From Cytophagales bacterium (GTDB taxonomy: Bacteria; Bacteroidota; Bacteroidia; Cytophagales; Cyclobacteriaceae), in assembly GCA_025359125.1 (NCBI GenBank), contig JANYHI010000068.1:124001-188000 (forward strand): DNA of 64,000 nt, written 5' to 3'. This document shows positions 17,579 through 35,558 of the stretch, one piece after another. Position 1 is the first letter of the stretch. Each line of letters starts with the position of its first letter. The translations under genes were made by a program, and so were the position numbers. The notes below the pieces were generated by a model that was not told the origin of the DNA, did not search any database, and saw nothing but the letters and a program-made list of their open reading frames with translations.

Positions 17579-17631
17579 AAATAGTTGTTTAGTTGATGGT
17601 ATGTTTTATTAATCCCAACTTTGACGCCTTA

Positions 17632-18828
17632 ATGAAGAAGATAGTATTTTTTGTATTGCTCGTTATCTGCGCATTAGCGTTTTCTACTTCTAGCAATGGC
17701 CAAGTTAAAAAAGATACTACTATCATTTTAATTAGCGATATCACCGTACAACTAGAGGCATCACAGGCATTGAACGACCTTTATGATTTTAAGTTTGAAA
17801 AGGCCGAGCAGCAAATGCGTTGGTTTAAACAAAAGTATGAGTGGCATCCGCTTCCTTATTTTATGATGGGGCTTAGCGAATGGTGGAAGATTATGCCCAA
17901 TACAAAGGAGACGAAACATGACGATCGCTTTTTAGCCTACATGGATAGTGCCATTTTTGTGGCTGAGAATCTATACAAAAAGCACCCTGAATATAAAATT
18001 GAAGCAGCCTTTTTCTTGGCAGCGGCACATGGTTTTAAGGGAAGACTTTATGCAGATGAAGAGAGAAAAAATTGGAGAAAGGCGGCTGTGGAGGGGAAGA
18101 CTGCACTCAATTATTTAGAGGTCAGTAGACAAAAAGAAAATCTCAGCCCTGAATTATTATTTGGTGATGCACTCTACAATTACTTTTCGGTGTGGGTGCC
18201 AGAAAATTATCCGGCATTAAAACCATTGCTGTGGTTTTTTAGAAAAGGCGATAAGCAGCTCGGGTTAAAGCAACTAAAAGAGGTTTCTTACAATGCTTTT
18301 TACACGCGCACCGAAGCCATGGTTTGGTATATGCGCATTATGAATAGTTATGAGAACGATCAGCCTAAAGCATTTCAGATTGCAGAATATTTGCATCAAA
18401 CGTATCCAAATAACTCTTACTTCCACCGCTACTATGCGCGAATGCTGTATTCAAGAGGAATGTATCCTGAGTTGGAAGTGGAATCAAAACGCATTCTTAA
18501 TTTAATTGACAGTGCAAAGTTAGGTTACGAAGCTACCAGCGGAAGATATGCTGCTTTCTTTCTGGGGCAGCTTTATGATTTTAAGCGACAAGATGAACTA
18601 GCAAAAAAGTATTATCAATTGTCAGAAAAATTTGCGGAAGAAATTGGTGCGACTGAATCAGGTTATTATTTGTACTCTTTAATTGCGCTGGGCGAGATAA
18701 GCGAGCGGCAGGGCAATAAAACCGAAGCCAGAAAATATTTTAATCTGGTGAAGAAGAAAGCTGGGCGAAAAGACGAAGCTTTTAAAGATGCCAAGCGAAG
18801 GCTTAAGAAAATGGAGAAGGGAGATTGA
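17632..18828 (+). CDS. Exported TPR-repeat protein
   Basis: The ORF track starts at 17593; the ATG at 17632 begins a normal signal peptide (MKKIVFFVLLVICALAFSTSSNGQ) and leaves 398 residues. The mature protein is almost entirely helical, with degenerate TPR-like units, for example LNDLYDFKFEKAEQQMRWFKQKY at the N-terminus and ALGEISERQGNKTEARKYFNLVKK at the C-terminus. It probably acts as a periplasmic scaffold. A short GAGATT/AATCTC hairpin sits at the stop codon. No partner can be named from the context. Confidence 0.8.
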   Translation: MKKIVFFVLLVICALAFSTSSNGQVKKDTTIILISDITVQLEASQALNDLYDFKFEKAEQQMRWFKQKYEWHPLPYFMMGLSEWWKIMPNTKETKHDDRFLAYMDSAIFVAENLYKKHPEYKIEAAFFLAAAHGFKGRLYADEERKNWRKAAVEGKTALNYLEVSRQKENLSPELLFGDALYNYFSVWVPENYPALKPLLWFFRKGDKQLGLKQLKEVSYNAFYTRTEAMVWYMRIMNSYENDQPKAFQIAEYLHQTYPNNSYFHRYYARMLYSRGMYPELEVESKRILNLIDSAKLGYEATSGRYAAFFLGQLYDFKRQDELAKKYYQLSEKFAEEIGATESGYYLYSLIALGEISERQGNKTEARKYFNLVKKKAGRKDEAFKDAKRRLKKMEKGD

Positions 18829-18940
18829 TAATCTCATTCAAAAAAAATGATATAGTCTTAGTGCAATTCACGTTTTTTGTTTAGGTTATCTTGACATTTC
18901 AATCTAGAGAAGAAAATACTGAAATCAGGTGGATGAACTA

Positions 18941-19852
18941 ATGGGTTTACAAAAAAAATACACATTCAACTACATAGAAAACTGTAATATGTGTGGTTCA
19001 GATTCATCTACGCATAAAATATTAGGCAAGCGCTTAAATCGTTCACAGGGTAAAAATCCAAGGAATAAAATCGGGATAACAACAACCGTTGTGAAGTGTA
19101 ACGACTGTCGTCTTATCTACTCAAACCCACAACCAATTCCGAATAGCATTCAAGATCATTATGGAGTACCACCAGAAGATTATTGGAATGAGGATTACTT
19201 CACAGTTAACCCAGAATATTTTAAAACTGAAATAGAGACTTTAAAAAAACTTTACAATTTTAAAGAAGGAGATAAAGCTCTAGACATTGGGGCGGGTATA
19301 GGGAAATGTATGATTGCCTTAACAAACGCAGGTTTTGATACGTACGGGTTTGAACCCTCAGAATCATTCCAGTCAAGAGCAATACAAAAAATGAATATCA
19401 ATCCTGAAAGACTTACTCTTAACTCAATTGAAAACGCAGAGTTACCCAATAACTATTTTGACTTCATAACTTTTGGTGCTGTACTGGAACATTTGTATGA
19501 TCCATCTGCATCAATTAATAAGGCAATGAATTGGTTAAAACCGGGAGGCGTAATGCAAATTGAAGTTCCGTCTTCGGATTGGCTTATTAATAAAATATTG
19601 AATGCGTTCTATAAGGTGAAGGGACTAGATTACGTTGCTAACATTAGTCCAATGCATGAGCCATTTCATCTATATGAATTTTCATTAAAGTCGTTTCAGA
19701 AAAATGCAAAGATGAACAATTACTCAATTTTGCATTCTGAATACTATGTAGCTCAAACCTATATGCCCAGGATTCTAGATACTTTACTTGTGCCTTATAT
19801 GAGATTTACAAATACGGGGATGCAGTTATGCGTGTGGTTAAGGAAACAATAG
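18941..19852 (+). CDS. Zinc-ribbon class I SAM methyltransferase
   Basis: The ORF track starts with GTG at 18929; the ATG at 18941 gives 303 residues. The N-terminus has a four-cysteine zinc-ribbon-like pair, CNMC and CNDC, the second in the typical VKCNDCRLIYSNPQP context. The methyltransferase domain follows, with ALDIGAGIGKCMIAL, YGFEPSE, FDFITFGAVLEHLYDP and WLKPGGVMQIEVPS. Such enzymes are common in polysaccharide and sugar-modification loci, where some act on deoxysugar intermediates. It precedes the surface-glycan region by 114 bases and may belong to it. Substrate unknown. Confidence 0.85.
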   Translation: MGLQKKYTFNYIENCNMCGSDSSTHKILGKRLNRSQGKNPRNKIGITTTVVKCNDCRLIYSNPQPIPNSIQDHYGVPPEDYWNEDYFTVNPEYFKTEIETLKKLYNFKEGDKALDIGAGIGKCMIALTNAGFDTYGFEPSESFQSRAIQKMNINPERLTLNSIENAELPNNYFDFITFGAVLEHLYDPSASINKAMNWLKPGGVMQIEVPSSDWLINKILNAFYKVKGLDYVANISPMHEPFHLYEFSLKSFQKNAKMNNYSILHSEYYVAQTYMPRILDTLLVPYMRFTNTGMQLCVWLRKQ

Positions 19853-19966
19853 CTTTAGAGTTACTGGTAGTATCACAAATTGAATAGGAATAATTCATCT
19901 TTATAATTAACTTATTGTCCATCAAAGTTTCAGGTTATTTTATTAACAAACACAAATACCCACTAT

Positions 19967-22807
19967 ATGGCTCTAAAAAGAATTGTAACATTTGACAACA
20001 TGACAGAATTGCGAGCAAGCAATATTTTTTCAACAACAACTCAAAGTGAATTAGTGGCTGAAATACTTGGCTATTATTCAATTAATGATGGAGGTTCAGG
20101 TCAGCTCTATTATGACAGTGTAAGTACATTAGCGGATAATGGAGGAAGTGTAATAAAGCCTAACAGTATTGGAGTTGGGTCGCCAGGAAGGTGGATTGGT
20201 ATTTTTGAAAATGATATTTATAATTTAAAGCGTTTTGGTGCTAAAGCTGATTATGGAAGTGGTAACACTAATAACTCACCAATTATTCAAACAGTCATCG
20301 ATAGTTTAACTCAAGGATCAGTAATAACATTATTCATTCCGGCTGGTAAATATTATTGTCTTAATACCATTAATGTTGTTGATAAGCCTATACACCTTGA
20401 GGGTGAGGGCACTGAAGCATATAGTGTTGGGGTGTCAAAACTAATGTTTCCTGTAAGTAAAGTGGGTATCAGTTGGACGAGAACAATAACTTATGGATAT
20501 CAGAAAGGCGCTATTAAAAACTTGGTGATTGAAGCAGAAGCCAAAAATCCATTAGATGTTTTTCCTTTCCTCTATAATGGTATTGAGATTTCATCGGTTA
20601 CCACTGTTAGTCATGTACGAGTAATTGGTTTTAGCGGAAATGGCATACAGATTACGAGTGCAGTTGGCCTGGGTACTGATGCTTCGTTAAGCTATTTTGA
20701 GAAAGTTGTTTCATCAAATAATAATGGGAGTGGGTTTTATATTGGAGGTCCAGATGTAAATCAAATCTCTTTTATTGGATGTGATGTTAGAGACAATAGC
20801 AGATACGGATTTGAGGATGCAAGTTTTTTGGGGAACCAGTATTTTGGTTGCTCTGGTCATGCCAACACCCTTGGTCATTTCTATTGTGTTGGGCTAAATG
20901 CTTACTCAACTTATGTGGGTTGTTATGGTGAAGGAGATGGGTCTGCAGCCTCCACTATTACATCACCGTATTCAACGGTAGTTGGAGGCATACATGCAAA
21001 TGGATTATCCAATGCACCTTATTGGGCTGGGTTTAAAATGTATAACAAAGGATTAAACTTCATAAAGAATGACCCTGGATCTGGTCAAGATATAGGAATA
21101 GGTCTTCATGAAGGACAGATGGATTTTTACGGACCCGGAGGAGAAGCATTTTATTTAAAAAATAAAAGTGCCTACCCAGGAACCTACTTCTCCATGGAGG
21201 CTGGAATTAATGCACCTGGAGAAAGTCAGCTATGGGAAATGTTAGGTATTGGCCAAATACTAAGAATACCTTACGAAGCTCAGATTCCTTTTCCTTCAAA
21301 TCTGCCTCCACGGTATCTAAGACATGCAACTCATGCATTCAGGCAAATATATCTGAATGGTAAATTCGTAGGATTTACATTCGATAATCTACAAACTCAA
21401 CTAAATAATGGCTACTACTCTACTGTAAATTATCATCAGGGTGATTTATTCTTCAACGCTAGATATGACGGATCTAATCCAATCGGGTGGATGTGCTATT
21501 CAAATGGAAGTGTGGGAGTTTATAGTGAAGGATTAACGGCAACCAATCCAAGTGGTGGCACTATCCTAACATTGAATGCCATAACATCAGCTTTGCACGA
21601 AGGTCAATCCATTTTAGTGAATGGAATTGCCTCCATGATTATGGATTTTAGCAATGGTGATAAGACAAAACCTATAATGGATAAAGACATGGGCATTTTT
21701 TCCACCCCAAAGTCCATTTCATATGTTGCTCCATTATTTAAACCATTCAGTGACTCTTCAGCAACAATTGATTTAACTTACTTTGGTGACGGATCAGATG
21801 GCGATGCGATTATAACTTCAGCTACTCAAACCGCTGGCACTTGGTTAGCATCTGGATTATTAAGTCGCGATGCTTATCTAAATAATCTTTCAATCAATTC
21901 TTTGGGTTCCCTTGATCTTAATGGGTATCGGCTTTTCGTTTTGAACACCCTTGATATTGCAGCTGCTAATAGTAATTCTATTCATAGCAATGCTAACAAC
22001 GGTGCGAATGCAAGCTCAGCCACTGGAGCAAGCGCTGTCTCAGCATCAACATCTAAAACTATTGGCGTTGGTACACAAGGAGGTGCGGGAGGCTCAGGTG
22101 GAACTGCTGCTGGTGCTCAAGCCGTTTCAATATCAGCACCATCTCCATCTAATGGTGGGAGATCAGGTTCAGGAGGCGCTGCAGGAAGTGGATCAAGTGG
22201 TGCAGGTGGAGTTGCGAGAGTTTCTTTAGCTCCTACAAATTCTCTTAAGTTAAAGAGGCTTACTTTAGATTTGATTCGCGGAGCAACATTATTAGTCGGT
22301 GGTGGTGGCGCTCCAGGAGGAGCTGGTGGTGGTGGGGATGGAACAGCAGGAGGAGGAGGAGGATCTGGTGGAAATGGAGGCAATGTTGGATTGGTTTCCG
22401 CTAGAACTATAAATCGTAGCGCTTCGACTGCCGTTGGAGCTATAAGCATGCTAGGCGGCAATGGTGGGTCCGGCTTTTCTTCATCTGCTGGTAACCGAGG
22501 TGGTGGAGCAGGAGCTGGTGGTGGTTGGTTAGTGATAATTTATAAATTTCTTACAGGAGTGAATGGCAATAATGTAATAAGATGTAATGGTGGCAAAGGA
22601 GGTAATGGGGGTAACGGATTTGGTACTGGTGTAGGAGGGGCAGGCGGAAATGGAGGATATGGCGGTCGAATCACTTTGATAAATACCGGTGCCAATACCA
22701 TTGTGGAATTAGATAATACTCTAACTGCAGGTACAAATGGAAGTAGTGCTGCTGGTAATACTGGTGGTGGTGGTGGAAATGGTACGCTAACTCAATCAAA
22801 TTTATAA
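19967..22807 (+). CDS. Phage tail-spike-like beta-helix protein with glycine-rich C-terminus
   Basis: A 946-residue protein with no signal peptide. Residues 1-85 resemble the N-terminal domain of phage tail fibres and spikes (GGSGQLYYDS, then a GRWIGIF strand). Residues about 86-340 look like a pectate-lyase-3/beta-helix domain (NLKRFGAKADYGSGN, then repeated short strands such as NSRYGFEDASFLGNQYFGCS). A middle beta-rich region follows. Residues 684-946 are extremely rich in glycine (GGGGAPGGAGGGGDG type), similar in composition to polyglycine tail-tip adhesins. In phages such proteins bind or cut surface glycans. Here it sits directly ahead of polysaccharide genes on the same strand. Phage origin, secretion route and activity are inference. 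Alternatives are a glycan epimerase or lyase. Confidence 0.75.
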   Translation: MALKRIVTFDNMTELRASNIFSTTTQSELVAEILGYYSINDGGSGQLYYDSVSTLADNGGSVIKPNSIGVGSPGRWIGIFENDIYNLKRFGAKADYGSGNTNNSPIIQTVIDSLTQGSVITLFIPAGKYYCLNTINVVDKPIHLEGEGTEAYSVGVSKLMFPVSKVGISWTRTITYGYQKGAIKNLVIEAEAKNPLDVFPFLYNGIEISSVTTVSHVRVIGFSGNGIQITSAVGLGTDASLSYFEKVVSSNNNGSGFYIGGPDVNQISFIGCDVRDNSRYGFEDASFLGNQYFGCSGHANTLGHFYCVGLNAYSTYVGCYGEGDGSAASTITSPYSTVVGGIHANGLSNAPYWAGFKMYNKGLNFIKNDPGSGQDIGIGLHEGQMDFYGPGGEAFYLKNKSAYPGTYFSMEAGINAPGESQLWEMLGIGQILRIPYEAQIPFPSNLPPRYLRHATHAFRQIYLNGKFVGFTFDNLQTQLNNGYYSTVNYHQGDLFFNARYDGSNPIGWMCYSNGSVGVYSEGLTATNPSGGTILTLNAITSALHEGQSILVNGIASMIMDFSNGDKTKPIMDKDMGIFSTPKSISYVAPLFKPFSDSSATIDLTYFGDGSDGDAIITSATQTAGTWLASGLLSRDAYLNNLSINSLGSLDLNGYRLFVLNTLDIAAANSNSIHSNANNGANASSATGASAVSASTSKTIGVGTQGGAGGSGGTAAGAQAVSISAPSPSNGGRSGSGGAAGSGSSGAGGVARVSLAPTNSLKLKRLTLDLIRGATLLVGGGGAPGGAGGGGDGTAGGGGGSGGNGGNVGLVSARTINRSASTAVGAISMLGGNGGSGFSSSAGNRGGGAGAGGGWLVIIYKFLTGVNGNNVIRCNGGKGGNGGNGFGTGVGGAGGNGGYGGRITLINTGANTIVELDNTLTAGTNGSSAAGNTGGGGGNGTLTQSNL

Positions 22808-22849
22808 GTAGTTGAATTTTTCAGCACATTAGCTTTCGTTTACTCTTTT

Positions 22850-24181
22850 ATGGAACTTAGGGATTTCATAGTTACCCCCATTTTACTAATGGTGATTTGT
22901 GTAGCATCCTACATAATAAGACCTTTAGTAACAGATGCCGTTAATCGTGCCTATTTTTTCCCTGCGCTATGGCTAAAGATAATTGGTGCTATTAGTATAG
23001 GCATTATTTATCAATTTTATTATGATGGCGGTGATACATTTATGTATCATACTTATGGAAGTCGCTTTGTTTGGGAAGCCTTTTGCGATTCCCCTTCAAA
23101 AGGTCTGAAATTACTTTTTTCAGATGGAATAGATCAGGCAGGCGTTTACAAATACACTTCTCAAATTTATTTTTTTCGTGACCCTGCATCATATACTATC
23201 GTTCGCATTGCCTCTATTTTTGATTTGATAACTTTTTCTACCTACTCAGCTACTGCTGTGTTATTTGCTGTGTTTAGTTTTATAGGTATGTGGATGTTCT
23301 TCCTTACCTTCTACAAGCAATATCCACATTTACATAAAGGTTTTGCGCTGGCGGCATTTTTCATGCCTTCCGTTTTCTTCTGGGGTTCAGGTGTTTTGAA
23401 AGATTCAATTACACTGGCGTGTTTAGGAATTGCAACGTACCAGTTTTATAAAATTTTCTTTGAACGCAAAATCACCTTCATCAATTTTCTAATTCTCCTC
23501 ATTGCGTTATACGGAATTTTCAGTGTAAAAAAATTTGTACTTCAAGCATACCTACCTGCAGCAATCGTATGGATCTTTGCCCGAAATCTCGGACATATTC
23601 GCTCCTTTGTATTGAAATTAATGTTAGTGCCTTTTGTTGCCATAATCGTGATCGCGTCAGCTTACTATGCTATTGTAAAAGTGGGCGAAGATGATGCGCG
23701 CTATTCCATTTCTAAAATTGCAGAGACCGCTCAGGTTACCGCGTACGATATCCGGTATTGGTCGGGTCGTGATGCTGGTTCTGGTTATTCGCTCGGAGAA
23801 CTGGATGGCACGTTTGGCTCGATGGTTCGATTGGCGCCACAGGCTATTAATGTTTCGTTGTTTCGTCCTTATATATGGGAAGTACGAAATCCACTAATGC
23901 TTTTATCGGCAATGGAAAGTTCTTGTTTGTTAGGCTTTGCTCTTTATGTAATATTCAAGAAGCGATCCTTATTCCTTGCTGCATTTTCCAATTCAAATGT
24001 AATTTTTGCAATGGTGTTTTCCATTTCCTTTTCCTTTGCAGTGGGTATATCTACTTTTAACTTTGGAACGCTTGTGCGCTACAAAATTCCCTTACTTCCT
24101 TTTTTCCTTACCGCACTTATTCTGATGATGGATTATGAAAAAAGCTATAGGAAATTAGATGAATTTGAAAGCACTGAATAG
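22850..24181 (+). CDS. Polytopic membrane protein, Wzy-like (candidate glycan polymerase or flippase partner)
   Basis: A 443-residue integral membrane protein with about ten hydrophobic segments spread from residue 8 to 430 and a larger loop around residues 275-330 (EDDARYSISK through DGTFGSMVRL). The early IYQFYYDGGDTFMYH motif and the FFMPSVFFWGSGVLKDSI segment recall membrane proteins of Bacteroidetes polysaccharide loci, some of them O-antigen polymerase-like. I cannot assign a reaction. It lies 42 bases after the beta-helix gene. Its first residues (MELRDFIV) recur in a broken copy 176 bases past its stop. Confidence 0.65.
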   Translation: MELRDFIVTPILLMVICVASYIIRPLVTDAVNRAYFFPALWLKIIGAISIGIIYQFYYDGGDTFMYHTYGSRFVWEAFCDSPSKGLKLLFSDGIDQAGVYKYTSQIYFFRDPASYTIVRIASIFDLITFSTYSATAVLFAVFSFIGMWMFFLTFYKQYPHLHKGFALAAFFMPSVFFWGSGVLKDSITLACLGIATYQFYKIFFERKITFINFLILLIALYGIFSVKKFVLQAYLPAAIVWIFARNLGHIRSFVLKLMLVPFVAIIVIASAYYAIVKVGEDDARYSISKIAETAQVTAYDIRYWSGRDAGSGYSLGELDGTFGSMVRLAPQAINVSLFRPYIWEVRNPLMLLSAMESSCLLGFALYVIFKKRSLFLAAFSNSNVIFAMVFSISFSFAVGISTFNFGTLVRYKIPLLPFFLTALILMMDYEKSYRKLDEFESTE

Positions 24182-24412: not shown

Positions 24413-25519
24413 CTAATTAGCTGATGCAGTGCTAGCAATAATTACAAATTTCTTTTTCAAGTTCAAAAAGTATTTTTCAAAATAAGTATATGAAAAATAA
24501 GAAATTAATATCGTTGTGCTGAGTATAACAAAATAAACAATAAAATATTTGTATGGCGGGGAAACGTTCGCTCTACCAAAGATTTTAGAAAAGAAGAAAA
24601 TTAAAAGTGGATGAATGACATAAATTCCGTATGATATTTTTCCTAAAAAATCGAACACATTGATCTCTAAATTAATTATTCTGTTATTAATTCTTATCTG
24701 TCCAATTATCAATCCAAGGGCAACCACACAAATAATTTCATTGTCAATTATTGAGGCCAAATGAAATTTGTTAATTGCCACTAATAAAACTATAAACCAG
24801 CAAGAACCCTGATATATTTTATTATCGGTTGTTAGTAAAAACAACTTATTTTTTTGGTTATACAGTATAGCGCCCAATGCCCCAATCATCATACAATGAA
24901 ATCGTGTAACCGTTATTATGTCTTCAAGAAGAGTATTTGGATAAAAAGAATGGAGAAAAACTTTTGTCCCTAATAGAATGGCAATAATAAAGACAATAAT
25001 GGGGACAATATTTTTTTCGATTTTTTTATTGAACCAAGGCCAGAATAAGTAAAACTGTTCTTCCACTCCTAAAGACCAATAATGTTCTAAAAAGGGTAAC
25101 GCAGTCCCTGCAATGAATGGAATGTTAGCAGCATAAAATAGATACAGGAACAACGATTTTAAATCCAGACCAAGGTCAAGTATAGCTATAGTAGTTACAG
25201 CAATAACCAAGTACAAATAATACAAAGGCCAAATGCGTAGGATTCTCCGTAGATAGAATTTTTTAACATTAATTGGCTGAACTTCTTTTTCGGCCTGAAG
25301 TAAATAGGTAATTAAAAAACCACTTAGGACAAAAAAAATACTTACTCCGTATCCTGCTAGAGTCAGTCCCTTAGGTGTACCATCCTGAAAAGTACCAAAT
25401 ATGTGAGGGTTAAGATTGAATTCTTTAAGAGCTAAAGTAATATGAGATAGCACTACAGCAATTGCAGCAATTGCTCTTAGTCCATTTAGTCCAGGAAAGT
25501 ATATTGGGTCATTTCTCAT
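24413..25519 (-). CDS. Acyltransferase 3 family membrane protein (OafA-like)
   Basis: A 368-residue membrane acyltransferase with about ten transmembrane helices. The family start YFPGLNGLRAIAAIAVVLSHI contains the conserved Arg and catalytic His. GVSIFFVLSGFLITYLL, RRILRIWPLYYLYL and HYWSLGVEEQFYLFWP follow, all standard motifs. These enzymes typically O-acetylate surface sugars, which fits the surrounding polysaccharide genes. By eye the gene is more A+T-rich than its neighbours, suggesting recent acquisition. It is on the minus strand with the next glycosyltransferase gene, 134 bases apart. The exact acceptor is unknown. Confidence 0.93.
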   Translation of the reverse strand: MRNDPIYFPGLNGLRAIAAIAVVLSHITLALKEFNLNPHIFGTFQDGTPKGLTLAGYGVSIFFVLSGFLITYLLQAEKEVQPINVKKFYLRRILRIWPLYYLYLVIAVTTIAILDLGLDLKSLFLYLFYAANIPFIAGTALPFLEHYWSLGVEEQFYLFWPWFNKKIEKNIVPIIVFIIAILLGTKVFLHSFYPNTLLEDIITVTRFHCMMIGALGAILYNQKNKLFLLTTDNKIYQGSCWFIVLLVAINKFHLASIIDNEIICVVALGLIIGQIRINNRIINLEINVFDFLGKISYGIYVIHPLLIFFFSKIFGRANVSPPYKYFIVYFVILSTTILISYFSYTYFEKYFLNLKKKFVIIASTASAN

Positions 25520-26766: not shown

Positions 26767-27618
26767 ATGTCTTTCATGGATGTGAAGAAAGTTGATGATT
26801 TTTATTTTGAAATAAAGCCAAAATTAGCGTTCAGCTTGAATTTGAAGGAGTTAGTTGAGTATAAAGAACTCTTTTATTTTTTTACGTGGCGCGATGTAAA
26901 GGTCAAATATAAACAGACTGCGCTTGGTTTTCTCTGGGCTGTCCTTCAGCCTTTAATAATGATGGTCATCTTTACCTTCTTTATTGGAAAGGCAATGAAA
27001 GTTCCCTCTGATGATATGGACTACCCTATCTTCGCATTTTCAGGATTAATCTTGTGGACGGTCTTCTCATCAGGCATTACCAATGCTGGCAATAGTATGG
27101 TAAGCAACGCACAAATTATTAAGAAGATTTATTTCCCCAGATTGGTAATTCCTATTTCATCTATATTGGTTTCAGTTTTTGATTTCCTAATCGCCTTTTT
27201 GGTGTTCATCGTTTTGCTTTTAGTCTATCAACAACCCATTCATTTTGTTCAAGCCTTTATTCTTTGGCCAACTGGATTAGTTGTTGCGGTAATCGCTACT
27301 TTTGGCCCCGGCTGCTTGCTTGCAGCGTTGAATGTAAAGTACCGCGACTTTCGATATGTAATTCCTTTTTTAGTACAGGCGTTTTTATTTCTTACACCCG
27401 TAATCTATCCGATTTCAATTGTCTCGAACCCTTGGTTAAAATATTTGCTCGCGCTCAATCCAATGTATGCTGCAATAACAATTTTCAGAATGCCAATGAT
27501 GAATAGTGCTCCAGACATGACATTGCTTTGGGTAAGTCTGTCTTCAGGTGTAATTCTCTTTTTTATTGGGTTAACCTATTTTCGGAAGACGGAAATGTAC
27601 TTTGCAGATCTGGCGTAA
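26767..27618 (+). CDS. ABC-2 type polysaccharide export permease (Wzm-like)
   Basis: This 283-residue permease has six predicted transmembrane helices and the motifs of O-antigen/teichoic acid exporters: FFTWRDVKVKYKQTALGFLWAVLQPLIMMVIFTFF near the N-terminus, and LNVKYRDFRYVIPFLVQAFLFLTPVIYP in the C-terminal half. With the ATPase encoded 1 base downstream it should export a completed lipid-linked glycan across the inner membrane. The start codons of this gene and the minus-strand glycosyltransferase are only 18 bases apart. It begins a tightly packed run of genes reaching to 34543. Confidence 0.93.
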   Translation: MSFMDVKKVDDFYFEIKPKLAFSLNLKELVEYKELFYFFTWRDVKVKYKQTALGFLWAVLQPLIMMVIFTFFIGKAMKVPSDDMDYPIFAFSGLILWTVFSSGITNAGNSMVSNAQIIKKIYFPRLVIPISSILVSVFDFLIAFLVFIVLLLVYQQPIHFVQAFILWPTGLVVAVIATFGPGCLLAALNVKYRDFRYVIPFLVQAFLFLTPVIYPISIVSNPWLKYLLALNPMYAAITIFRMPMMNSAPDMTLLWVSLSSGVILFFIGLTYFRKTEMYFADLA

Positions 27619-27619
27619 C

Positions 27620-28849
27620 ATGACACCTATTTTAGAAATTCAGGCTGTCTCCAAGAAGTTTAATATTCATCACGAAGGTGGACCTTACTTGAGCCTACGC
27701 GACAAAATAACGGGGTTCGCTAAATTTAAATCGTCACAAAAAAGTGATGAAGAATTTTGGGCGTTGAAAGATGTGAGCTTTAATGTAATGCCGGGCGAAT
27801 CCATCGGTATTATAGGAAAGAACGGTGCAGGCAAATCTACATTGCTGAAAATACTTTCAAAGATTACACCACCAAGTTCTGGCAAGATTATTAGTCGGGG
27901 AAGAATTGCGAGTTTGCTCGAAGTAGGAACAGGATTTCATCCGGAGCTAACTGGTAGAGAAAATGTATACCTCAACGGATCAATCCTGGGCATGCGCAAA
28001 AAAGAAATTGACGCGCGGTTTGAGGAGATTGTTGATTTCGCAGGCACTGAAAAATTTCTCGATACACCTTTGAAACATTATTCCAGTGGAATGCAACTGA
28101 GATTAGCTTTTGCTGTAGCTGCTTTTCTTGAACCAGAGATTCTTGTAATCGATGAAGTATTGGCTGTTGGTGATGCCGAGTTTCAGAAGAAGTGTTTAGG
28201 CAAGATGGAAGATGTGAGTAAAAGTGGAAGAACAATTTTATTTGTCAGCCACAACATGTCAGCTGTTGAAAGTTTGTGCAGTAAGTCCATTCTCCTTAAA
28301 AATGGTCAATTGCATTTTAGTGGATCTTCTACTGATGTTATCCAGCAATACATGAATTCATTGGACAGCCAGGCACTAGATAAAACTGGCGTTATTTTAT
28401 TGGATGATTCCAATAAACCAGTTCGCAAAGTCGAAATTCTTTGCGATGGAAAAAATTCCGGCACAGCGTATATGGGCTGTAAACTGGAGATACGAATTTA
28501 TTTTAAATCCGATGAAAAACTTGATGCACCCGTATTGGGCATTATTTTAAAAGACAGTCAGGGTATTCCGATGATTGGTGTGAACAACAAAAACTATGTT
28601 GGTAACTTAGCGTCACAACCCGTATCCGATGGATACATCTCAATGACCATTCCCTATTTAACATTATTCGAAGGAACCTACCACGCAGATATTCACTTCG
28701 GAAATGGATTTAAAGATATAGAGGTGTTGCGCGATTGTTTTCAAATCGTTGTAGAGTCTATTAGCTTTACAACGTCAGGAGAATTACCGGACAAAAAGCT
28801 CAACAGACTTTTTATAAAAGATATTGCGTGGAGTCTTAATGCCAAATAA
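27620..28849 (+). CDS. ABC exporter ATPase with C-terminal glycan-binding domain (Wzt-like)
   Basis: The ORF track starts with TTG at 27602, inside the permease gene; the ATG at 27620 follows the permease stop by 1 base and gives 409 residues. Walker A GKNGAGKST, signature YSSGMQLRLAFAVAA and Walker B ILVIDEVLAVGD are intact. Residues about 250-409 form an added beta-rich domain (KTGVILLDDSNKPVRKVEIL onwards, ending with GNGFKDIEVLRDCFQIVVE) as in Wzt proteins, where it binds the modified end of the O-polysaccharide. This suggests chain-end recognition before export. The methyltransferase gene downstream overlaps its last 11 bases. Confidence 0.93.
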   Translation: MTPILEIQAVSKKFNIHHEGGPYLSLRDKITGFAKFKSSQKSDEEFWALKDVSFNVMPGESIGIIGKNGAGKSTLLKILSKITPPSSGKIISRGRIASLLEVGTGFHPELTGRENVYLNGSILGMRKKEIDARFEEIVDFAGTEKFLDTPLKHYSSGMQLRLAFAVAAFLEPEILVIDEVLAVGDAEFQKKCLGKMEDVSKSGRTILFVSHNMSAVESLCSKSILLKNGQLHFSGSSTDVIQQYMNSLDSQALDKTGVILLDDSNKPVRKVEILCDGKNSGTAYMGCKLEIRIYFKSDEKLDAPVLGIILKDSQGIPMIGVNNKNYVGNLASQPVSDGYISMTIPYLTLFEGTYHADIHFGNGFKDIEVLRDCFQIVVESISFTTSGELPDKKLNRLFIKDIAWSLNAK

Positions 28850-29531
28850 AAATCACATGATCGGTAGAATTGCACGAAAGATTAGATTCATTTCACTTCA
28901 ATCTTCAGTTAGAGGTTTTGGTGAATTACAAAAAGTAAAACCGTTTGATCAACTTACTTTAAAAGTGATTGAAAAAAATAAAGAAATGCTTCGTCCGTAT
29001 TACGATCAATATGTACGTGATATTTCTAGCGCTGACATGGCTGCTTCTCTGGAGTTGGCTTCATCCATGTTTACGATTTGTAAAGTTAATCAATACAAAA
29101 AGTTATTGGACATGGGTTCTGGATTGAGCTCGTTCGTTTTTCGATTGTATGCAAAAGAAACTCCAGGGGTAACGGTTTATTCTGTTGACGATGATGCAGC
29201 GTGGCTTGAAAAGACAAAAGATTTTTTAACCCAACATAAAGTGGGGATTGAAAAAATGTATACTCTGGAGCAATTTTTAAAATCGGGCGAGTCGGGTTTT
29301 GATTGTATACTTCATGATCTCAATTTTGTGGAGGTACGAATAAATTATGTAGAGAAATTGATGAACATAGTGAAACCGGATGGGCTCATTATTTTCGATG
29401 ATGTTCATAAGCCAGATTATCTTTTTGCGTTGCTATCTAAGTTGAAAAGTATACCTTCAAAAATATTTACGGTAAAACCTGTTACAAACGATAGGTACGG
29501 TCGGTTTGCATTGGCGGTGGTGAAAGAATAG
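28839..29531 (+). CDS. SAM methyltransferase-like protein overlapping the Wzt gene
   Basis: The ORF track's TTG at 28824 is replaced by the ATG at 28839 (230 residues); another ATG at 28857 is possible. The Rossmann motifs are KKLLDMGSGLSSFVFRLYA, VYSVDDDAAWLEKT, FDCILHDLNF and NIVKPDGLIIFDDVHKPDYL. The overlap with the Wzt-like ATPase gene implies translational coupling. Because Wzt C-domains recognise chain-terminal modifications such as methyl groups, this enzyme is a candidate chain terminator. That is inference; it could equally modify an internal sugar. Confidence 0.8.
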   Translation: MPNKNHMIGRIARKIRFISLQSSVRGFGELQKVKPFDQLTLKVIEKNKEMLRPYYDQYVRDISSADMAASLELASSMFTICKVNQYKKLLDMGSGLSSFVFRLYAKETPGVTVYSVDDDAAWLEKTKDFLTQHKVGIEKMYTLEQFLKSGESGFDCILHDLNFVEVRINYVEKLMNIVKPDGLIIFDDVHKPDYLFALLSKLKSIPSKIFTVKPVTNDRYGRFALAVVKE

Positions 29532-29534
29532 TAG

Positions 29535-30449
29535 ATGAAGTTGAGCATTATTATTCCCACGAAGGACAGAGGCAAGGTTTTTGATCAAACCTTGCTTTGT
29601 GCTTCTGAGGCCATTCAGCATTTAGATGCTGAGATAATTGTAGTTAACGATTCAAAAGTTTCAAAGCCCCTTATTCCAAACGGATATAAAAATGCTAGAC
29701 TTATTAATAATCCAAAATCCGGAGTAGCTTCTGCTCGTAATGCGGGAGTGCGGGAATCAAAAGGTGACCTGCTACTTTTTTTAGACGATGATATTATTAT
29801 CTCAAAAAGTTCCGTTGATCACGTATTGAGTTTGCATGAACAAATGAAAAATGCATGCTTCAATTTAAATTGGGAATATCCTCCTTCAATGCAAACAGAT
29901 ATGGGGCTAACTCAATTTGGAAGATTTATGAAAGCACATCGATTGACCTCGTTCAAAGGATGGTATGCAGATGCTTCGTGGAAAGACAACACATTATTTC
30001 CTTCCAAGTCTGTTGCTAGTTTTCATCTCTCCATTGAGCGCAATCACTTTGCGAAAACCGAAGGATATAACGAGCAATTCCCCTACGCTGGTTTTGAGGA
30101 TTATGATTTCCCTTTGCAGTTGGAAAAAATAGGAGTATCTTTTTTTATTGATAGCCGCATTCGTGTTTTTCACAACGAGGCAGATCGGTTGAAATTAGAT
30201 AATTGGCTAAACAGTCAAGAGCGAAGATCTGCGACACGCAGTGTTGCAGTAAATTTGGGGTATAAAGAATTGGAGCTAAAGTATGGATTCGTCAAGAGAA
30301 TACTGCTCATGGGCATTAATTATTTCTCAGGATTGCTGATGTTTCTGTTAAGGATTATACCGAACAATAAAAGAGCAGACCTCTTATACTTTAAATTGGT
30401 AGCTGTTATACAAGCCGGAAAAATATTTAAAGGCTACACTTCTCATTAA
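29535..30449 (+). CDS. Glycosyltransferase family 2
   Basis: A 304-residue GT-A type transferase. It begins MKLSIIIPTKDRGKVFD, has the nucleotide-binding EIIVVNDSK strand, SGVASARNAGVRESKGDLLLFLDDD with the metal-binding DDD, and GFEDYDFPLQLEK holding the probable catalytic ED pair. The C-terminus has two hydrophobic stretches that may attach it to the membrane. It starts 3 bases after the preceding stop, so it is part of the same operon. Sugar specificity is unknown. Confidence 0.9.
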   Translation: MKLSIIIPTKDRGKVFDQTLLCASEAIQHLDAEIIVVNDSKVSKPLIPNGYKNARLINNPKSGVASARNAGVRESKGDLLLFLDDDIIISKSSVDHVLSLHEQMKNACFNLNWEYPPSMQTDMGLTQFGRFMKAHRLTSFKGWYADASWKDNTLFPSKSVASFHLSIERNHFAKTEGYNEQFPYAGFEDYDFPLQLEKIGVSFFIDSRIRVFHNEADRLKLDNWLNSQERRSATRSVAVNLGYKELELKYGFVKRILLMGINYFSGLLMFLLRIIPNNKRADLLYFKLVAVIQAGKIFKGYTSH

Positions 30450-30455
30450 GCGCAT

Positions 30456-31322
30456 ATGAACCTATCCCTAAAAGTAAGGATTCTGAATTTTTTCCGCAGC
30501 ATTTTCAAGGTTCCGATTCTTGAATCTCTTCTTGCGGCACAAACACAGGATAAACCTGCAACTAGTTTACTATGTAAATTTGTTCCCAATCCATATCAAT
30601 ATTCTCCAGGAACCTATCGAAATGTTAATCGCAATGGTCTGACACTTCAGGTAGATATTAGTGACTACATCGGGCATTATCTATACTTTGGCTTTTATGA
30701 TGATGGTATCTCCAGTCTTTTCTCATTGTGTCAGAAAAATTTTAACGTCATTGACATTGGAACAAACATCGGATGGGTTGCGCTCAATTTCGCAAGACTC
30801 AGTGGAGCTGGAAATGTTATTGGGTTTGAACCTGATCCGTTCAACTATTCGGTATGCAAGGCAAATATTGAGCGGAACAGATTTCCTAATTTAAGAGTAC
30901 TCCCGTATGGCCTTGGCGAAACTTCTGCCGAAGTGAATATGGAAGTAAGAACACCAGAGAACAGAGGGGGAAATCGAATTGCGCCAAAGGGTGGATCAGG
31001 TTCTGTTAAAGTTTATATTAAGCGATTAGACGAAATCAGTGAAGTAACTTCGCTTCCCGTTATTCATCTTATAAAACTGGATGTTGAAGGTTATGAATTA
31101 AAAGTATTGCATGGGGCTAAAAGCATTCTCGACAAACACCGACCAACTTTATTTATCGAAGTTGACAATGATAATTTGATGGATCAAGGTGATTCCGCAA
31201 AAGATCTGGTTTTGTTTCTGGAATCCTGCGGATACCAATCTATTCGCCATGCCGAAACGAATTCAATTATTACAGGAAATTTTGATTTTTCTCATTGTCA
31301 TTTCGATATTATTGCTCAATAG
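30456..31322 (+). CDS. FkbM-family methyltransferase
   Basis: A 288-residue methyltransferase with clear FkbM motifs: FNVIDIGTNIGWVALNFARL, VIGFEPDPFNYSVCKANIERN, LPYGLGETSAEVNM, then HLIKLDVEGYELKVLHGAKSIL and PTLFIEVDNDNL. FkbM enzymes O-methylate sugars or polyketides; in polysaccharide loci they usually methylate a glycan residue. The gene starts 6 bases after the GT2 gene and ends 3 bases before the next glycosyltransferase. The N-terminal 90 residues are less conserved. Confidence 0.92.
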   Translation: MNLSLKVRILNFFRSIFKVPILESLLAAQTQDKPATSLLCKFVPNPYQYSPGTYRNVNRNGLTLQVDISDYIGHYLYFGFYDDGISSLFSLCQKNFNVIDIGTNIGWVALNFARLSGAGNVIGFEPDPFNYSVCKANIERNRFPNLRVLPYGLGETSAEVNMEVRTPENRGGNRIAPKGGSGSVKVYIKRLDEISEVTSLPVIHLIKLDVEGYELKVLHGAKSILDKHRPTLFIEVDNDNLMDQGDSAKDLVLFLESCGYQSIRHAETNSIITGNFDFSHCHFDIIAQ

Positions 31323-31325
31323 GGC

Positions 31326-32441
31326 ATGGTGCAAAAGCATGTTGTTTATATTATTTCGCACGTGCACAAGTCGCTCGCATTTGAATGGATTGCTGAGGGA
31401 TTAAAAAGTAATTATAAACTTACCTTCATCCTGCTCAATGCCTCCCCCTCGGCTCTTGAAGATTTTCTGATTCATCATCAGGTTGAGGTTAAGCGCATTT
31501 CTTATCGTAGCAAACAGGATTTTCCAATGGCTTTTGTTAAGACATTCTTCTATCTCCTCTTCAAAAGACCGCAGATTGTTCATGCTCATTTGTTTGATGC
31601 CCAGCTAATCGGATTAACTGCGGCTTGGCTTACCAGAATTCGTAAAAGAATTTACACGCGACATAACAGCAATTATCATCATGTATATCATCCGCGCGGG
31701 GTACAGTTTGATAGGTGGAGCAATCGAATGGCAACAGATATTATCTCAATCAGTCAGGCAACTGATAAAACGCTTTTAGAATGGGAGCATGTTCCCTTCT
31801 CTAAAGTGAAAAAAATTTCACACGGTTTTGATTTGAATGTTTTTGCCGAAGTACCTCTTGAACGCACTGAACACATCCGAAAAAAATGGCACATTCAGAA
31901 TCAGCATCCTACTGTTGGTGTTATTGCCAGGCACATTGAATGGAAAGGTATCCAATTTATAATTCCGGCATTTCAAAAGTTTATGAATGAAAATCCAAGT
32001 GCGTACTTAGTTATTGGAAATGCTTCGGGGCCTTACCATAATACGATTAAAGAATTATTAAAGTTAATTCCAACAGATCGAACAATTGTTATTCCCTTTG
32101 AAGAGGATGTTGCTGCGCTTTATTCTGTCTTTGATATATATGTCCACACACCAGTGGATACTATTTGCGAGGCATTTGGACAAACTTATGTTGAAGCATT
32201 AGCCGCTGGGATTCCTTCTATATTTACATTGTCCGGAATTGCGGCCGAATTTATTCAGCATGATCGAAATGCACTGGTTGTTGATTTTAAAGATTCAGAA
32301 GGCATTTATCATGCACTGACGCGTTTATGGATGGACAGGGAATTAAGAAATCACCTTATTGAAAATGGTAGACAAGATGTACTTTCACAGTTTGGAGTGG
32401 GGGAAATGCTCACTTCGCTGAAAAGACTCTATGACAAATAA
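31326..32441 (+). CDS. Glycosyltransferase family 4
   Basis: A 371-residue GT-B glycosyltransferase. The N-terminal half has IVHAHLFDAQLIGLTAAWL and RKRIYTRHNSNYHH; the C-terminal half has TVGVIARHIEWKGIQFII and the donor motif EAFGQTYVEALAAGIPSIFT (EX7E type). All catalytic landmarks are intact. Its stop overlaps the next GT2 gene by 11 bases. It presumably adds one residue of the repeat unit at the inner face of the membrane. Confidence 0.92.
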   Translation: MVQKHVVYIISHVHKSLAFEWIAEGLKSNYKLTFILLNASPSALEDFLIHHQVEVKRISYRSKQDFPMAFVKTFFYLLFKRPQIVHAHLFDAQLIGLTAAWLTRIRKRIYTRHNSNYHHVYHPRGVQFDRWSNRMATDIISISQATDKTLLEWEHVPFSKVKKISHGFDLNVFAEVPLERTEHIRKKWHIQNQHPTVGVIARHIEWKGIQFIIPAFQKFMNENPSAYLVIGNASGPYHNTIKELLKLIPTDRTIVIPFEEDVAALYSVFDIYVHTPVDTICEAFGQTYVEALAAGIPSIFTLSGIAAEFIQHDRNALVVDFKDSEGIYHALTRLWMDRELRNHLIENGRQDVLSQFGVGEMLTSLKRLYDK

Positions 32442-33321
32442 TCCTTTCTTCAGTGTTGTAATACCTACCTACAACCGCGCTGGCTTTATTCGAAAGACTA
32501 TAGAATCAGTGTTGGCTCAATCCTTCCAGGATTTCGAAATTATCGTGGTAGACGATGGCAGTACTGACAACACGGAGGAGATCGTGAAAAGTATTGTAAG
32601 TGATAAAATCCAATATCATAAAAAGGAGAATGCTGAGCGCTCAGCAGCCCGCAATTTTGGTGCAAAAATTTCGAATGGGCAGTACGTAAATTTTCTGGAT
32701 TCCGATGATGTCGTTTATCCTCATCATTTACAAGTAGCTAATGAATTTATAGAGCATCATGAAAGAGTAGCCATTTTTCATTTAGGATACGACATCAAAG
32801 ATGAACACAATACGCTGCTGCGGTCCGTAACAAATATTCAATCCGTCAATCTGCAAATTCTTTCAGGAAACATCCTTAGCTGCAATGGTGTTTTCATTAA
32901 GAAGGAAATCATCCTGGTAAATCAGTTTAACGAAGAACGATCGCTCTCTTCACTGGAAGATTGGGAACTGTGGATTCGAATGAGTGCCCGATATCCATTT
33001 TTAAACAGCAATGTAATCACCTCTACCGTGATTCAGCATGATGAAAGAAGTGTGATGACACCCAACACGTCAAAGATTAAACAGAAAGTTGATCAATTTG
33101 TGCAAGCTGTTTTGCAGGATGAGATAAATAAAAAACATTTTGGTTCAAAACTGAATAAAACCGAAGCAAGTGCCTGTACGTATGCTGCCCTGCATCTTAT
33201 TATGGCGAACGAAAATAAAAAAGAGGTACTTCATTATTTAGTGAAGGGCATCACCCGTTATCCTGGTGAAATTTTAAAAAAACGTTTTCTGGTTATTATC
33301 AAAAAACTAATAGGGCTTTAA
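32431..33321 (+). CDS. Glycosyltransferase family 2
   Basis: A 296-residue GT-A enzyme. FSVVIPTYNRAGFIRKTIESVLAQSF opens the fold, followed by EIIVVDDGSTDNTEEI, ERSAARNFGAK, the metal-binding VNFLDSDDVV and the acceptor-side LEDWELWIRMS. This is a textbook GT2 layout. It overlaps the upstream GT4 gene by 11 bases and precedes another glycosyltransferase by 10 bases. The sugar is not predictable. Confidence 0.92.
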   Translation: MTNNPFFSVVIPTYNRAGFIRKTIESVLAQSFQDFEIIVVDDGSTDNTEEIVKSIVSDKIQYHKKENAERSAARNFGAKISNGQYVNFLDSDDVVYPHHLQVANEFIEHHERVAIFHLGYDIKDEHNTLLRSVTNIQSVNLQILSGNILSCNGVFIKKEIILVNQFNEERSLSSLEDWELWIRMSARYPFLNSNVITSTVIQHDERSVMTPNTSKIKQKVDQFVQAVLQDEINKKHFGSKLNKTEASACTYAALHLIMANENKKEVLHYLVKGITRYPGEILKKRFLVIIKKLIGL

Positions 33322-33331
33322 TGCTGAGGCA

Positions 33332-34543
33332 ATGACGAACATTTTAATATTAACCTATTGGAGTTACCCCGATGCGCTGATCCAAACGTATACGTTGCCC
33401 TATGTACGCATTATTAAAAAGAACTTACCTCCCGGCAGCTCAATTTATTTGCTTACGCTTGAAAAAGATCAGAACGTACTCGAAAAACCAAAACGCGAAG
33501 AGATTGCAGAAAAGCTGGAGCAGGAAGGCATACATTGGTTGCCCTTCGCTTACAAACCTTTTGGTATTTCTGCATTCGTAATGTGGATTGGAATTTCTTT
33601 AAAACTGTGCTCGCTAATCATCCAAAGAAAAATTTCTGTGATTCATTGTTGGTGTACGCCACCAGGGGCCATTGGATACTTTTTGTCTGTGCTGCTAAAT
33701 AAAAAATTAGTATTGGATAGTTACGAGCCTCATGCAGAGGCGATGGTTGAGAACGGAACATGGAAAAGATCGAGCCTTGCTTTTAAACTACTATTTTGGC
33801 TGGAGAAAAAACAAACTGAAAGAGCCTCCTACATCATTTCAGCAACACAAGGCATGAAAGAATATGCAGCACATAAGTATCATGTTGATATACCGCATTT
33901 TTTGGTTAAGCCCGCTTGTGTCGATTTAAGTTTATTTAATGAAGAAGTAGTGAACGACCAAATGCTACGAACGGAACTTGGGCTTGAAAATAAAATAGTA
34001 TGTGTTTATGCCGGAAAGTTTGGGGGCATCTATTTAGAAGATGAAATTTTTGATTTCGTAAAAGTGTCTTCCGATTATTGGGGAGGTGTCTTCCGATTCC
34101 TCATTCTCACCAGTCATTCTCGCGAAGAGATAATGCAATATTGCCGAAAGGCAGAAGTGGATGGTAATTGTGTTGTGATGAAGTTTGTTCCACACAACCA
34201 AGTGCCTCGCTATATGGGTCTCGCTGATTTTGCGATAACCCCTGTAAAACCAATTCCAACAAAACGGTATTGCACACCCATTAAAGACGGAGAATATTGG
34301 GCGCTCGGCTTGCCTGTTGTTATTCCTGAAAATATTTCAGACGACTCGGATATTATTGAATCACATAATATTGGTGTAGTCCTTAAGTCTCTCCACTCAG
34401 ATAATTACTTGGAGGCAGTGAAGCGGATTGATGCTCTTCTCAAACAACCTAATTTAAGAGACAAAATAAGAATAGTGGCAAAAAAATTTAGAAGTTTTGA
34501 CATTGCTGAAAGTGTTTATGAGCTCGTTTATGGCATTAAATAA
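33332..34543 (+). CDS. Glycosyltransferase, GT4-like
   Basis: A 403-residue GT-B protein. The acceptor half contains HCWCTPPGAIGYFLSVLLNKKLVLDSYEPHAEAM and the donor half begins VCVYAGKFGGIYLEDEIF. The region RYMGLADFAITPVKP followed by KDGEYWALGLPVVIPE replaces the classical EX7E motif. It is less canonical than the 31326 gene but the fold is clear. It is the last gene of the packed run starting at 26767. An 82-base gap with a -7-like element follows. Confidence 0.85.
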   Translation: MTNILILTYWSYPDALIQTYTLPYVRIIKKNLPPGSSIYLLTLEKDQNVLEKPKREEIAEKLEQEGIHWLPFAYKPFGISAFVMWIGISLKLCSLIIQRKISVIHCWCTPPGAIGYFLSVLLNKKLVLDSYEPHAEAMVENGTWKRSSLAFKLLFWLEKKQTERASYIISATQGMKEYAAHKYHVDIPHFLVKPACVDLSLFNEEVVNDQMLRTELGLENKIVCVYAGKFGGIYLEDEIFDFVKVSSDYWGGVFRFLILTSHSREEIMQYCRKAEVDGNCVVMKFVPHNQVPRYMGLADFAITPVKPIPTKRYCTPIKDGEYWALGLPVVIPENISDDSDIIESHNIGVVLKSLHSDNYLEAVKRIDALLKQPNLRDKIRIVAKKFRSFDIAESVYELVYGIK

Positions 34544-34598
34544 TAAAAAAATTGCCTTTCCATGGTTACCCTGATCCGCAAAACAGCATTTGTCTTTG

Positions 34599-34606
34599 TA
34601 CATTTG
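34599..34606 (+). promoter_or_regulatory. -7-like element ahead of the SDR gene
   Basis: TACATTTG matches TAnnTTTG exactly, 19 bases before the ATG at 34626, in the first sizeable gap after the glycosyltransferase run. No -33 TTG at normal spacing. Confidence 0.38.
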
Positions 34607-34625
34607 ATGTTTAAGTAAAATTAAG

Positions 34626-35558
34626 ATGATCAAAATTCTTATTACGGGAGGAGCCGGCTTTGTAGGAAGTTCTTTAGCAGATAAATTATTGAAGCAGGGT
34701 AAGTATTTTGTGATGTTGATAGATAATCTATTGACAGGAGACATCCTAAAAGTGCCTCAACATCCGAATGCGAAATTCATCAAATGCGATGTAAATAATT
34801 ACCATGACATTGCAGCCATCATGACAAGCTTTCAGTTTGACTATGTCTTTCATTATGCAGCTGTGGTTGGTGTAAAACGCACCATCGAAAATCCAATAAT
34901 GGTGCTGGATGATTTAGAGGGTATAAAGAACGTCTTGAGTCTGAGTAAGAACACAGGCGTGAAACGAATCTTTTTCTCTAGTTCGTCAGAGGTATATGGA
35001 GAGCCTGTTGAACTTCCACAGCATGAAGAAACCACACCCCTCAATTCAAGATTGCCCTACGCAGTAGTAAAAAATGTGGGAGAATCATTTTGCAAATCAT
35101 ACCAAAAAGAGTTTGGATTAGACTATACTATTTTCAGGTTCTTCAACACCTACGGCCCCAAGCAAAGCACTGATTTCGTTATATCGAAGTTTTTAAAATC
35201 AGCCCTAAGCAATCAGCCCATTACTATTTATGGTAACGGAAGTCAGACTCGCACTTTCTGTTACATAGAGGATAATACGAATTGTATTCTTAAAATTTTA
35301 GAGGACAACCTGATGGTAAACGATGTGATTAATATTGGAAACGATAAGAATTACACTATCCTTCAATTGGCAGAAACCATCACCAGCCTTACCGGATCGA
35401 AATCAAAAGTTGAGTTTTTGCCTCCTTTAAAAGAAGGAGACATGACTCGCAGACAACCGGACGCTACCAAGATGGTTAATATTTTAAAGTATGATTTAAT
35501 TTCTCTAGAAGAGGGAATTGGCAGAATTCTAAAATCGGAAATGCTTTTTTTGAAATAA
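34626..35558 (+). CDS. NAD-dependent nucleotide-sugar epimerase/dehydratase (extended SDR)
   Basis: A 310-residue extended short-chain dehydrogenase. The NAD-binding loop ITGGAGFVGSSLADKLL is at the N-terminus, FFSSSSEVYGEP carries the catalytic Ser/Thr region, and YAVVKNVGESFC gives the YxxxK pair. FRFFNTYGPKQ and YGNGSQTRTFCYIED are typical of UDP-sugar epimerases and UDP-glucuronate decarboxylases. Exact reaction (4-epimerase, decarboxylase or dehydratase) cannot be fixed by eye. It closes the polysaccharide locus and probably supplies a sugar nucleotide. The PKD gene starts 4 bases after its stop. Confidence 0.9.
   Translation: MIKILITGGAGFVGSSLADKLLKQGKYFVMLIDNLLTGDILKVPQHPNAKFIKCDVNNYHDIAAIMTSFQFDYVFHYAAVVGVKRTIENPIMVLDDLEGIKNVLSLSKNTGVKRIFFSSSSEVYGEPVELPQHEETTPLNSRLPYAVVKNVGESFCKSYQKEFGLDYTIFRFFNTYGPKQSTDFVISKFLKSALSNQPITIYGNGSQTRTFCYIEDNTNCILKILEDNLMVNDVINIGNDKNYTILQLAETITSLTGSKSKVEFLPPLKEGDMTRRQPDATKMVNILKYDLISLEEGIGRILKSEMLFLK

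Follow-up and report, generated by a model that had tools for sequence, protein, structure and literature searches.

The open reading frame at positions 19967 to 22807 of the window (the whole 64,000-nucleotide stretch of DNA analysed here) very probably originated as a complete phage receptor-binding spike and reached the cargo slot of a polysaccharide locus by a recent capture of that gene alone. Judged from sequence comparisons, its product is a chimera of tailspike modules: an adaptor/neck, a right-handed beta-helix and a Gly-rich C-terminus. Caudovirus relatives exist for each of the three modules, which bears out the original prediction of a phage tail-spike-like protein in a polysaccharide locus. 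The fuller explanation, in which the recent capture is joined to a glycan-directed action of the protein, we consider moderately probable. The gene is divided as follows:

19967-22807, + strand: very probably a captured phage tailspike/receptor-binding protein gene (946 aa)
20006-20257, + strand: adaptor/neck domain, residues ~14-97 (from alignment A3 and PDB profile matches)
20222-21001, + strand: predicted right-handed beta-helix, residues ~86-345 (from relatives, model and Foldseek)
21002-21772, + strand: middle region, residues ~346-602 (no family match)
21773-22804, + strand: C-terminal FGDGSDG...NGYRxFV and Gly-rich module, residues ~603-946 (from viral contigs, alignment A6 and model)

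In the sequence of the window the frame is intact across all 946 codons, and the predicted coordinates, strand, length and uninterrupted frame were all correct. Upstream of the ATG the frame stays open for just 20 codons, none of them an alternative ATG, GTG or TTG start. The first 45 residues lack a hydrophobic core, the highest 12-residue Kyte-Doolittle mean being 0.98 as compared to 1.97-3.03 in the relatives that have signal peptides. Neither a signal peptide nor a twin arginine was found in the spike; with no upstream start and no N-terminal hydrophobic core, the claim that the protein lacks a signal peptide holds. The Sec signal and C-terminal sorting domain of type IX adhesins were also absent from the spike, with no Pfam match, and the proposal of a surface adhesin released by an unknown route gained no positive support.

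Pfam and NCBIfam scans of the whole protein and of its pieces gave no match, and PHROG scans of the same gave nothing significant. Matches of the whole protein by phmmer in the PDB were due to chance and Gly-rich sequence and were set aside. The pectate-lyase-3 family was reached through relatives of the spike, with L002 and L009 above the Pfam cut-off and L003 below it. For the spike itself the assignment to the pectate-lyase-3 type was not reached. A class-wide profile search (A1) was dropped as evidence because its common FGA.GDG motif led to ordinary signal-peptide pectate-lyase-3 proteins. By relatives, profiles and fold search, the three modules are nevertheless real.

The adaptor carries the motif GYY..DGGGG.FYWD..ST..DNGG.VI...GRW. 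Fourteen adaptor sequences were aligned (A3), with G22, D28, G30 and G32 invariant in the numbering of the first row, and the alignment was used as a profile against the PDB. It matched solved phage tailspikes and almost nothing besides: K2-2 TSP (8iq9, 2.3e-8, the best match), Fri1 gp49 (6c72, 2.1e-5) and CBA120 TSP2 (5w6p, 1.1e-4). Among named phages searched with tblastn, the adaptor is found in tail fibre or spike genes of Achromobacter phage Axy04 and of Pseudomonas Krylovirinae phages, and the Krylovirinae gene sits between internal virion protein and terminase genes. Nineteen viral contigs contain the adaptor, several of them with typical virion-binding N-termini ahead of it. The adaptor alone does not prove phage origin, because secreted beta-helix proteins and beta-helix lipoproteins of bacteria (L082-L085) carry it too. 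The non-phage carriers are Clostridia/Oscillospiraceae lipoproteins, a Proteiniphilum signal-peptide protein and a Mucilaginibacter orphan. The Clostridia/Oscillospiraceae lipoproteins L082, L083 and L084 combine a tailspike adaptor with a pectate-lyase-3 helix. In Mucilaginibacter sp. SG564 (L081:8932-10884) a lone 650-aa spike-like gene without a signal peptide is flanked by a protease gene and a sigma factor-FecR region, with no phage genes within 9 kb.

As in tailspikes, the adaptor/neck of the spike lies ahead of its beta-helix. The best match of the helix among named phages by tblastn was the spike of Vibrio phage 1.115 (AUR88569.1; 30% identity, 1e-14), and it shares 39% identity over 240 residues with spike L126 of IMG/VR contig 3300049498. 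L126 is a 322-aa spike, and the same viral contig encodes an endolysin. These two spikes belong to the same helix subfamily as ours but have no Gly-rich C-terminal module, and L126 also has no adaptor. The motif N...SFLGN...GC is common to the helix and to spike L004/L012 of an apparent prophage in another genome of the order. Residues D263, D284, N265, N277 and S286 are kept in all five helix relatives, and acids at 276 (D276) and 322 (E322) in four of the five. The conserved acids D263, D284, D276 and E322 are candidate catalytic residues, proposed from sequence alone.

The AlphaFold2 model was usable for residues 1-280 only (pLDDT mostly 55-90), and over this part it predicts the right-handed parallel beta-helix typical of tailspikes. 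A Foldseek search of this model against the PDB placed Fri1 (6c72, 1.4e-7) and CBA120 TSP2 (2e-7) at the top, followed by Pantoea WceF (6tgf, 4.1e-6) and then by the Vibrio RbmB lyase and AlgE4. K2-2 TSP (8IQ9), Acinetobacter phage Fri1 gp49 (6C72) and CBA120 TSP2 (5W6P) have an adaptor followed by a beta-helix, as the spike does; the spike differs in not being in a phage and in having the FGDGSDG Gly-rich module as its C-terminal part. Residues 283-600 were modelled with pLDDT below 50 and are unusable. Within the middle region an NPIGWMC stretch weakly resembles the distal portion of spike L004 (E 0.25, not significant).

The conserved C-terminal module begins near residue 603, not at residue 684 as had been proposed. 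The claimed polyglycine region of 260 residues is Gly-rich (32% Gly in the last 263 residues), although it is not polyglycine, since the longest run is 5. Viral contigs were collected with a degenerate gapped DNA pattern for DG[S/T]DG ... NGYR, which selects just two short blocks. All 17 pattern-matched contigs encode FGDGSDG-like, (L)TRDMYYNNLTI-like and NGYRxFV blocks and then a Gly-rich stretch. In L189 the similarity extends well past the pattern blocks (43% over 317 residues); the contig carries major head and tape-measure genes, and the fibre N-terminus matches PHROG tail fibres. Alignment A6 spans the entire C-terminal module. This module is held in common with caudovirus tail fibres (L189, L203 and A0A6J5KZ69), but in the examples read it follows a fibre N-terminus and not a beta-helix.

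The model of the C-terminal module (pLDDT 69, pTM 0.74) matched an uncultured Caudovirales protein, A0A6J5KZ69, in a Foldseek search of BFVD (1.2e-21), and had no Foldseek match in the PDB. The predicted fold also matches 'collagen-like' proteins of giant viruses (Orpheovirus and Pandoravirus). Matches in the PDB to a profile of the Gly-rich module, Obg proteins among them, were rejected as low-complexity. That the Gly-rich module might form a polyglycine-II lattice as in the phage S16 adhesin is a guess. A tblastn search of named phages with the C-terminal module found nothing, so all its phage members cited here come from BFVD or from metagenomic viral contigs. When 292 genomes of the order were searched, the C-terminal core was clear in the window only, with one further marginal match (6.7e-5); it is absent from 290 of the 292.

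The surroundings of the gene are those of a surface-polysaccharide locus:

17593-18828, + strand: TPR protein gene, which borders the cargo slot on the left and is conserved (54 of 59 genus genomes)
18929-19852, + strand: SAM methyltransferase gene, flanking the insertion on the left (PF13489, 4e-17)
22850-24181, + strand: gene for a 443-aa polytopic membrane protein, right flank of the insertion (genus core locus)
24413-25519, - strand: O-acyltransferase gene, another insertion that the sibling genome G028 lacks (PF01757, 2e-33; PHROG O-acetyltransferase, 8e-46)
26767-27618, + strand: Wzm-type ABC exporter membrane subunit (PF01061, 1.1e-16)
27602-28849, + strand: Wzt-type ABC exporter ATPase with Wzt C-terminal domain (PF00005, 2.7e-24; PF14524, 5.9e-9)
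28824-35558, + strand: glycosyltransferase, FkbM methyltransferase and NAD epimerase genes belonging to the polysaccharide locus

By Pfam, the neighbouring genes that were scanned have glycan or housekeeping roles, and a Por_Secre_tail (type IX sorting domain) was found in the neighbour at 35563-39108. The spike thus lies inside a polysaccharide synthesis cluster, as WceF-type genes do, and not in a virion gene cluster as tailspike genes do. Among the ten flanking proteins searched against PHROGs no phage structural gene was found besides the spike, just glycan-type 'moron'/other families; the statement that no other phage gene is nearby is thus upheld for structural genes. The 443-aa gene is found in 57 of 59 genus genomes; its protein matched no family in Pfam and NCBIfam scans. 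The O-acyltransferase gene at 24413-25519 has a low GC of 0.315 and, given its matches to O-antigen acetylase families of PHROG, may likewise have come with a phage.

The gap between the TPR and 443-aa genes is below 300 bp in 33 of the 45 genus genomes that have both genes on one contig. In the other 12 of the 45 the slot (18829-22849 in the window; L167-L178 region) holds extra glycan genes, which include a gmd and fcl-like pair, a methyltransferase, an acyltransferase and an MBOAT-type pair. In the window the gap is 4.0 kb and consists of the methyltransferase and the spike. The methyltransferase adjoining the 443-aa gene is 75.5% identical in G028, the closest sibling, and 70% identical in G006, where the two genes are 4 bp and 8 bp apart, respectively. 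In the window the spike alone separates them, and because of these short distances in the siblings we conclude that it arrived as one gene. From the methyltransferase through the T9SS protein G028 is collinear with the window, except that it has neither the spike nor the acyltransferase at 24413-25519. The insert is ~3.0 kb, with both flanking genes and their frames intact. The GC3 of the spike is 0.241, the lowest among the 42 ORFs of the window (z = -3.3), as compared to 0.356 +- 0.035 for the other 41; that of residues 1-600 is 0.262.

No full-length homologue of the spike was found in any other genome among 59 relatives, which include 36 of the genus besides the source genome, or among 391 of the order. 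The capture looks recent because close relatives have the locus without the spike. The nearest relatives of the helix are phage or prophage spikes, and with phage members of the modules at hand the homologues are not confined to bacterial cell-surface loci, nor is the predicted fold foreign to tail proteins. Against this reading of the origin, no high-identity relative of the spike was found, and a search for flanking direct repeats, insertion sequences, tRNAs or a recombinase that could account for the insertion found none, so that a single-gene capture has no visible mechanism.

Three other accounts of how the gene came to be here were weighed. It could be the residue of a decayed prophage once inside the locus, for which Emticicia sp. 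C21 (L010:7119-10365) offers a comparable case with a portal gene beside a related spike. That pair sits in otherwise chromosomal surroundings and is itself likely a prophage remnant. In our window, however, neither another phage structural gene nor a tRNA is near the spike, the insert is just ~3.0 kb between two intact genes, and PF03237 (Terminase_6N, the only terminase model used) had no match anywhere in the genome; a prophage remnant is therefore quite improbable. The tail-fibre modules of the spike would also suit a tailocin or extracellular contractile injection system whose other genes lie elsewhere in the genome, but Phage_sheath_1 (PF04984) had no match in the whole genome while controls were positive in 3 genomes. 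With PF04984 and PF03237 both unmatched, the tailocin-like part proposed originally is hardly credible. The gene occurs in one genome only, a draft of 87 contigs, which could point to an assembly artefact; its internal position in a 232-kb contig, the intact neighbours and frames, and a completeness of 100 with contamination of 0.01 make this very unlikely.

The protein might instead be a bacterial exopolysaccharide enzyme of the WceF type, long bacterial and merely phage-spike-like, that leaves the cell by an unrecognised route or acts on cells after lysis. WceF itself (PMC7949094) speaks for such enzymes, as do the Foldseek matches to WceF and to the RbmB lyase of Vibrio. So do 14 genomes from another family of the order, which have signal-peptide tailspike-like proteins in their exopolysaccharide loci. 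The spike has no signal, no orthologue in the genus and a phage-type C-terminal module missing from the order, and its helix is nearest to phage and prophage spikes, so we regard this alternative as unlikely. A stronger competitor is chance capture in a fast-recombining glycan locus, the product being of no use to the cell because it is unexpressed or an inert cytosolic protein. The spike is a singleton in the genus without an export signal, the cargo slot exchanges genes often, and phage proteins freed by lysis normally need no export. The intact 946-codon frame and neighbours argue the other way, although a recent event would look alike. Such a passenger is a serious possibility, nearly as likely as the folded cytosolic glycan-acting protein that we favor.

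A present glycan-directed function, proposed from sequence, is only tentative. The favored scheme starts from a spike gene that would have been captured from a phage, alone, into the cargo slot. Its product would fold in the cytosol as a beta-helix, probably a trimer, and could bind or cleave an acidic or decorated glycan via D263, D284 and E322. In ABC-exporter systems, according to PMC6379404, the lipid-linked glycan is fully assembled and then exported. The authors of the WceF study held that the depolymerase is inactive in the cytosol of Wzy systems, where only repeat units are present (PMC7949094). Because this is a Wzm/Wzt locus, the chain is probably completed in the cytosol before Wzm/Wzt exports it, and the spike could meet its substrate there without export, trimming or capping it. 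The 443-aa membrane protein could possibly be a polymerase, i.e. a Wzy-type step. The spike may also act on neighbour cells after lysis. A related and rather improbable idea is that it serves as a cytosolic, lysis-released decoy, freed spikes occupying or stripping the glycan of sister cells and so blocking phage adsorption; in an ABC-exporter locus such a decoy could perhaps shorten the nascent glycan within the cell as well. A domesticated depolymerase, one of the possibilities in the original prediction, gains little from these comparisons: there is no sign of long-term retention, because no equivalent gene was found in the other genus and order genomes tested and the insertion looks recent.

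The closest known counterpart is Pantoea stewartii WceF (PDB 6TGF; PMC7949094), which like the spike has a tailspike neck and right-handed beta-helix and is encoded inside an exopolysaccharide cluster. WceF has a Tat signal and an N-terminal head domain that the spike lacks, and is conserved across Pantoea/Erwinia whereas the spike is a singleton; thus, the spike fails two tested features of WceF, export signal and conservation. Hydrolase activity has been shown for WceF. The spike further differs in its Gly-rich C-terminal module and its place in an ABC-exporter locus. In family f11 of the order, 14 genomes encode a 728-753-aa signal-peptide protein with an adaptor remnant and a pectate-lyase-3 helix (L123:7293-9494, L204-L212, L215, L217, L219 and L221, all in exopolysaccharide loci). 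These genes are flanked by glycosyltransferases, a WbaP-like gene and often a second pectate-lyase-3 protein (446-aa). The 733-aa members (L123, L204-L212) resemble the spike in the adaptor remnant, helix and locus position, but f11 proteins are exported, occur in 14 genomes, have an extra N-terminal domain of ~150 residues and no Gly-rich module, and are distant in sequence and not orthologous. They are possibly a Bacteroidota counterpart of WceF, and their position in exopolysaccharide loci suggests that such captures have been retained at least once.

Capture of a phage glycan-handling protein of this sort has one well-studied precedent, Pantoea WceF. WceF, old and conserved, had suggested that bacteria take up tailspikes from phages and remodel their own glycans with them. 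An unexported spike in a Wzm/Wzt locus poses the question whether a tailspike would act inside the cell or only after lysis. Here the capture was seemingly caught early, with sibling loci showing the state before and after a one-gene insertion and the phage modules still recognisable.
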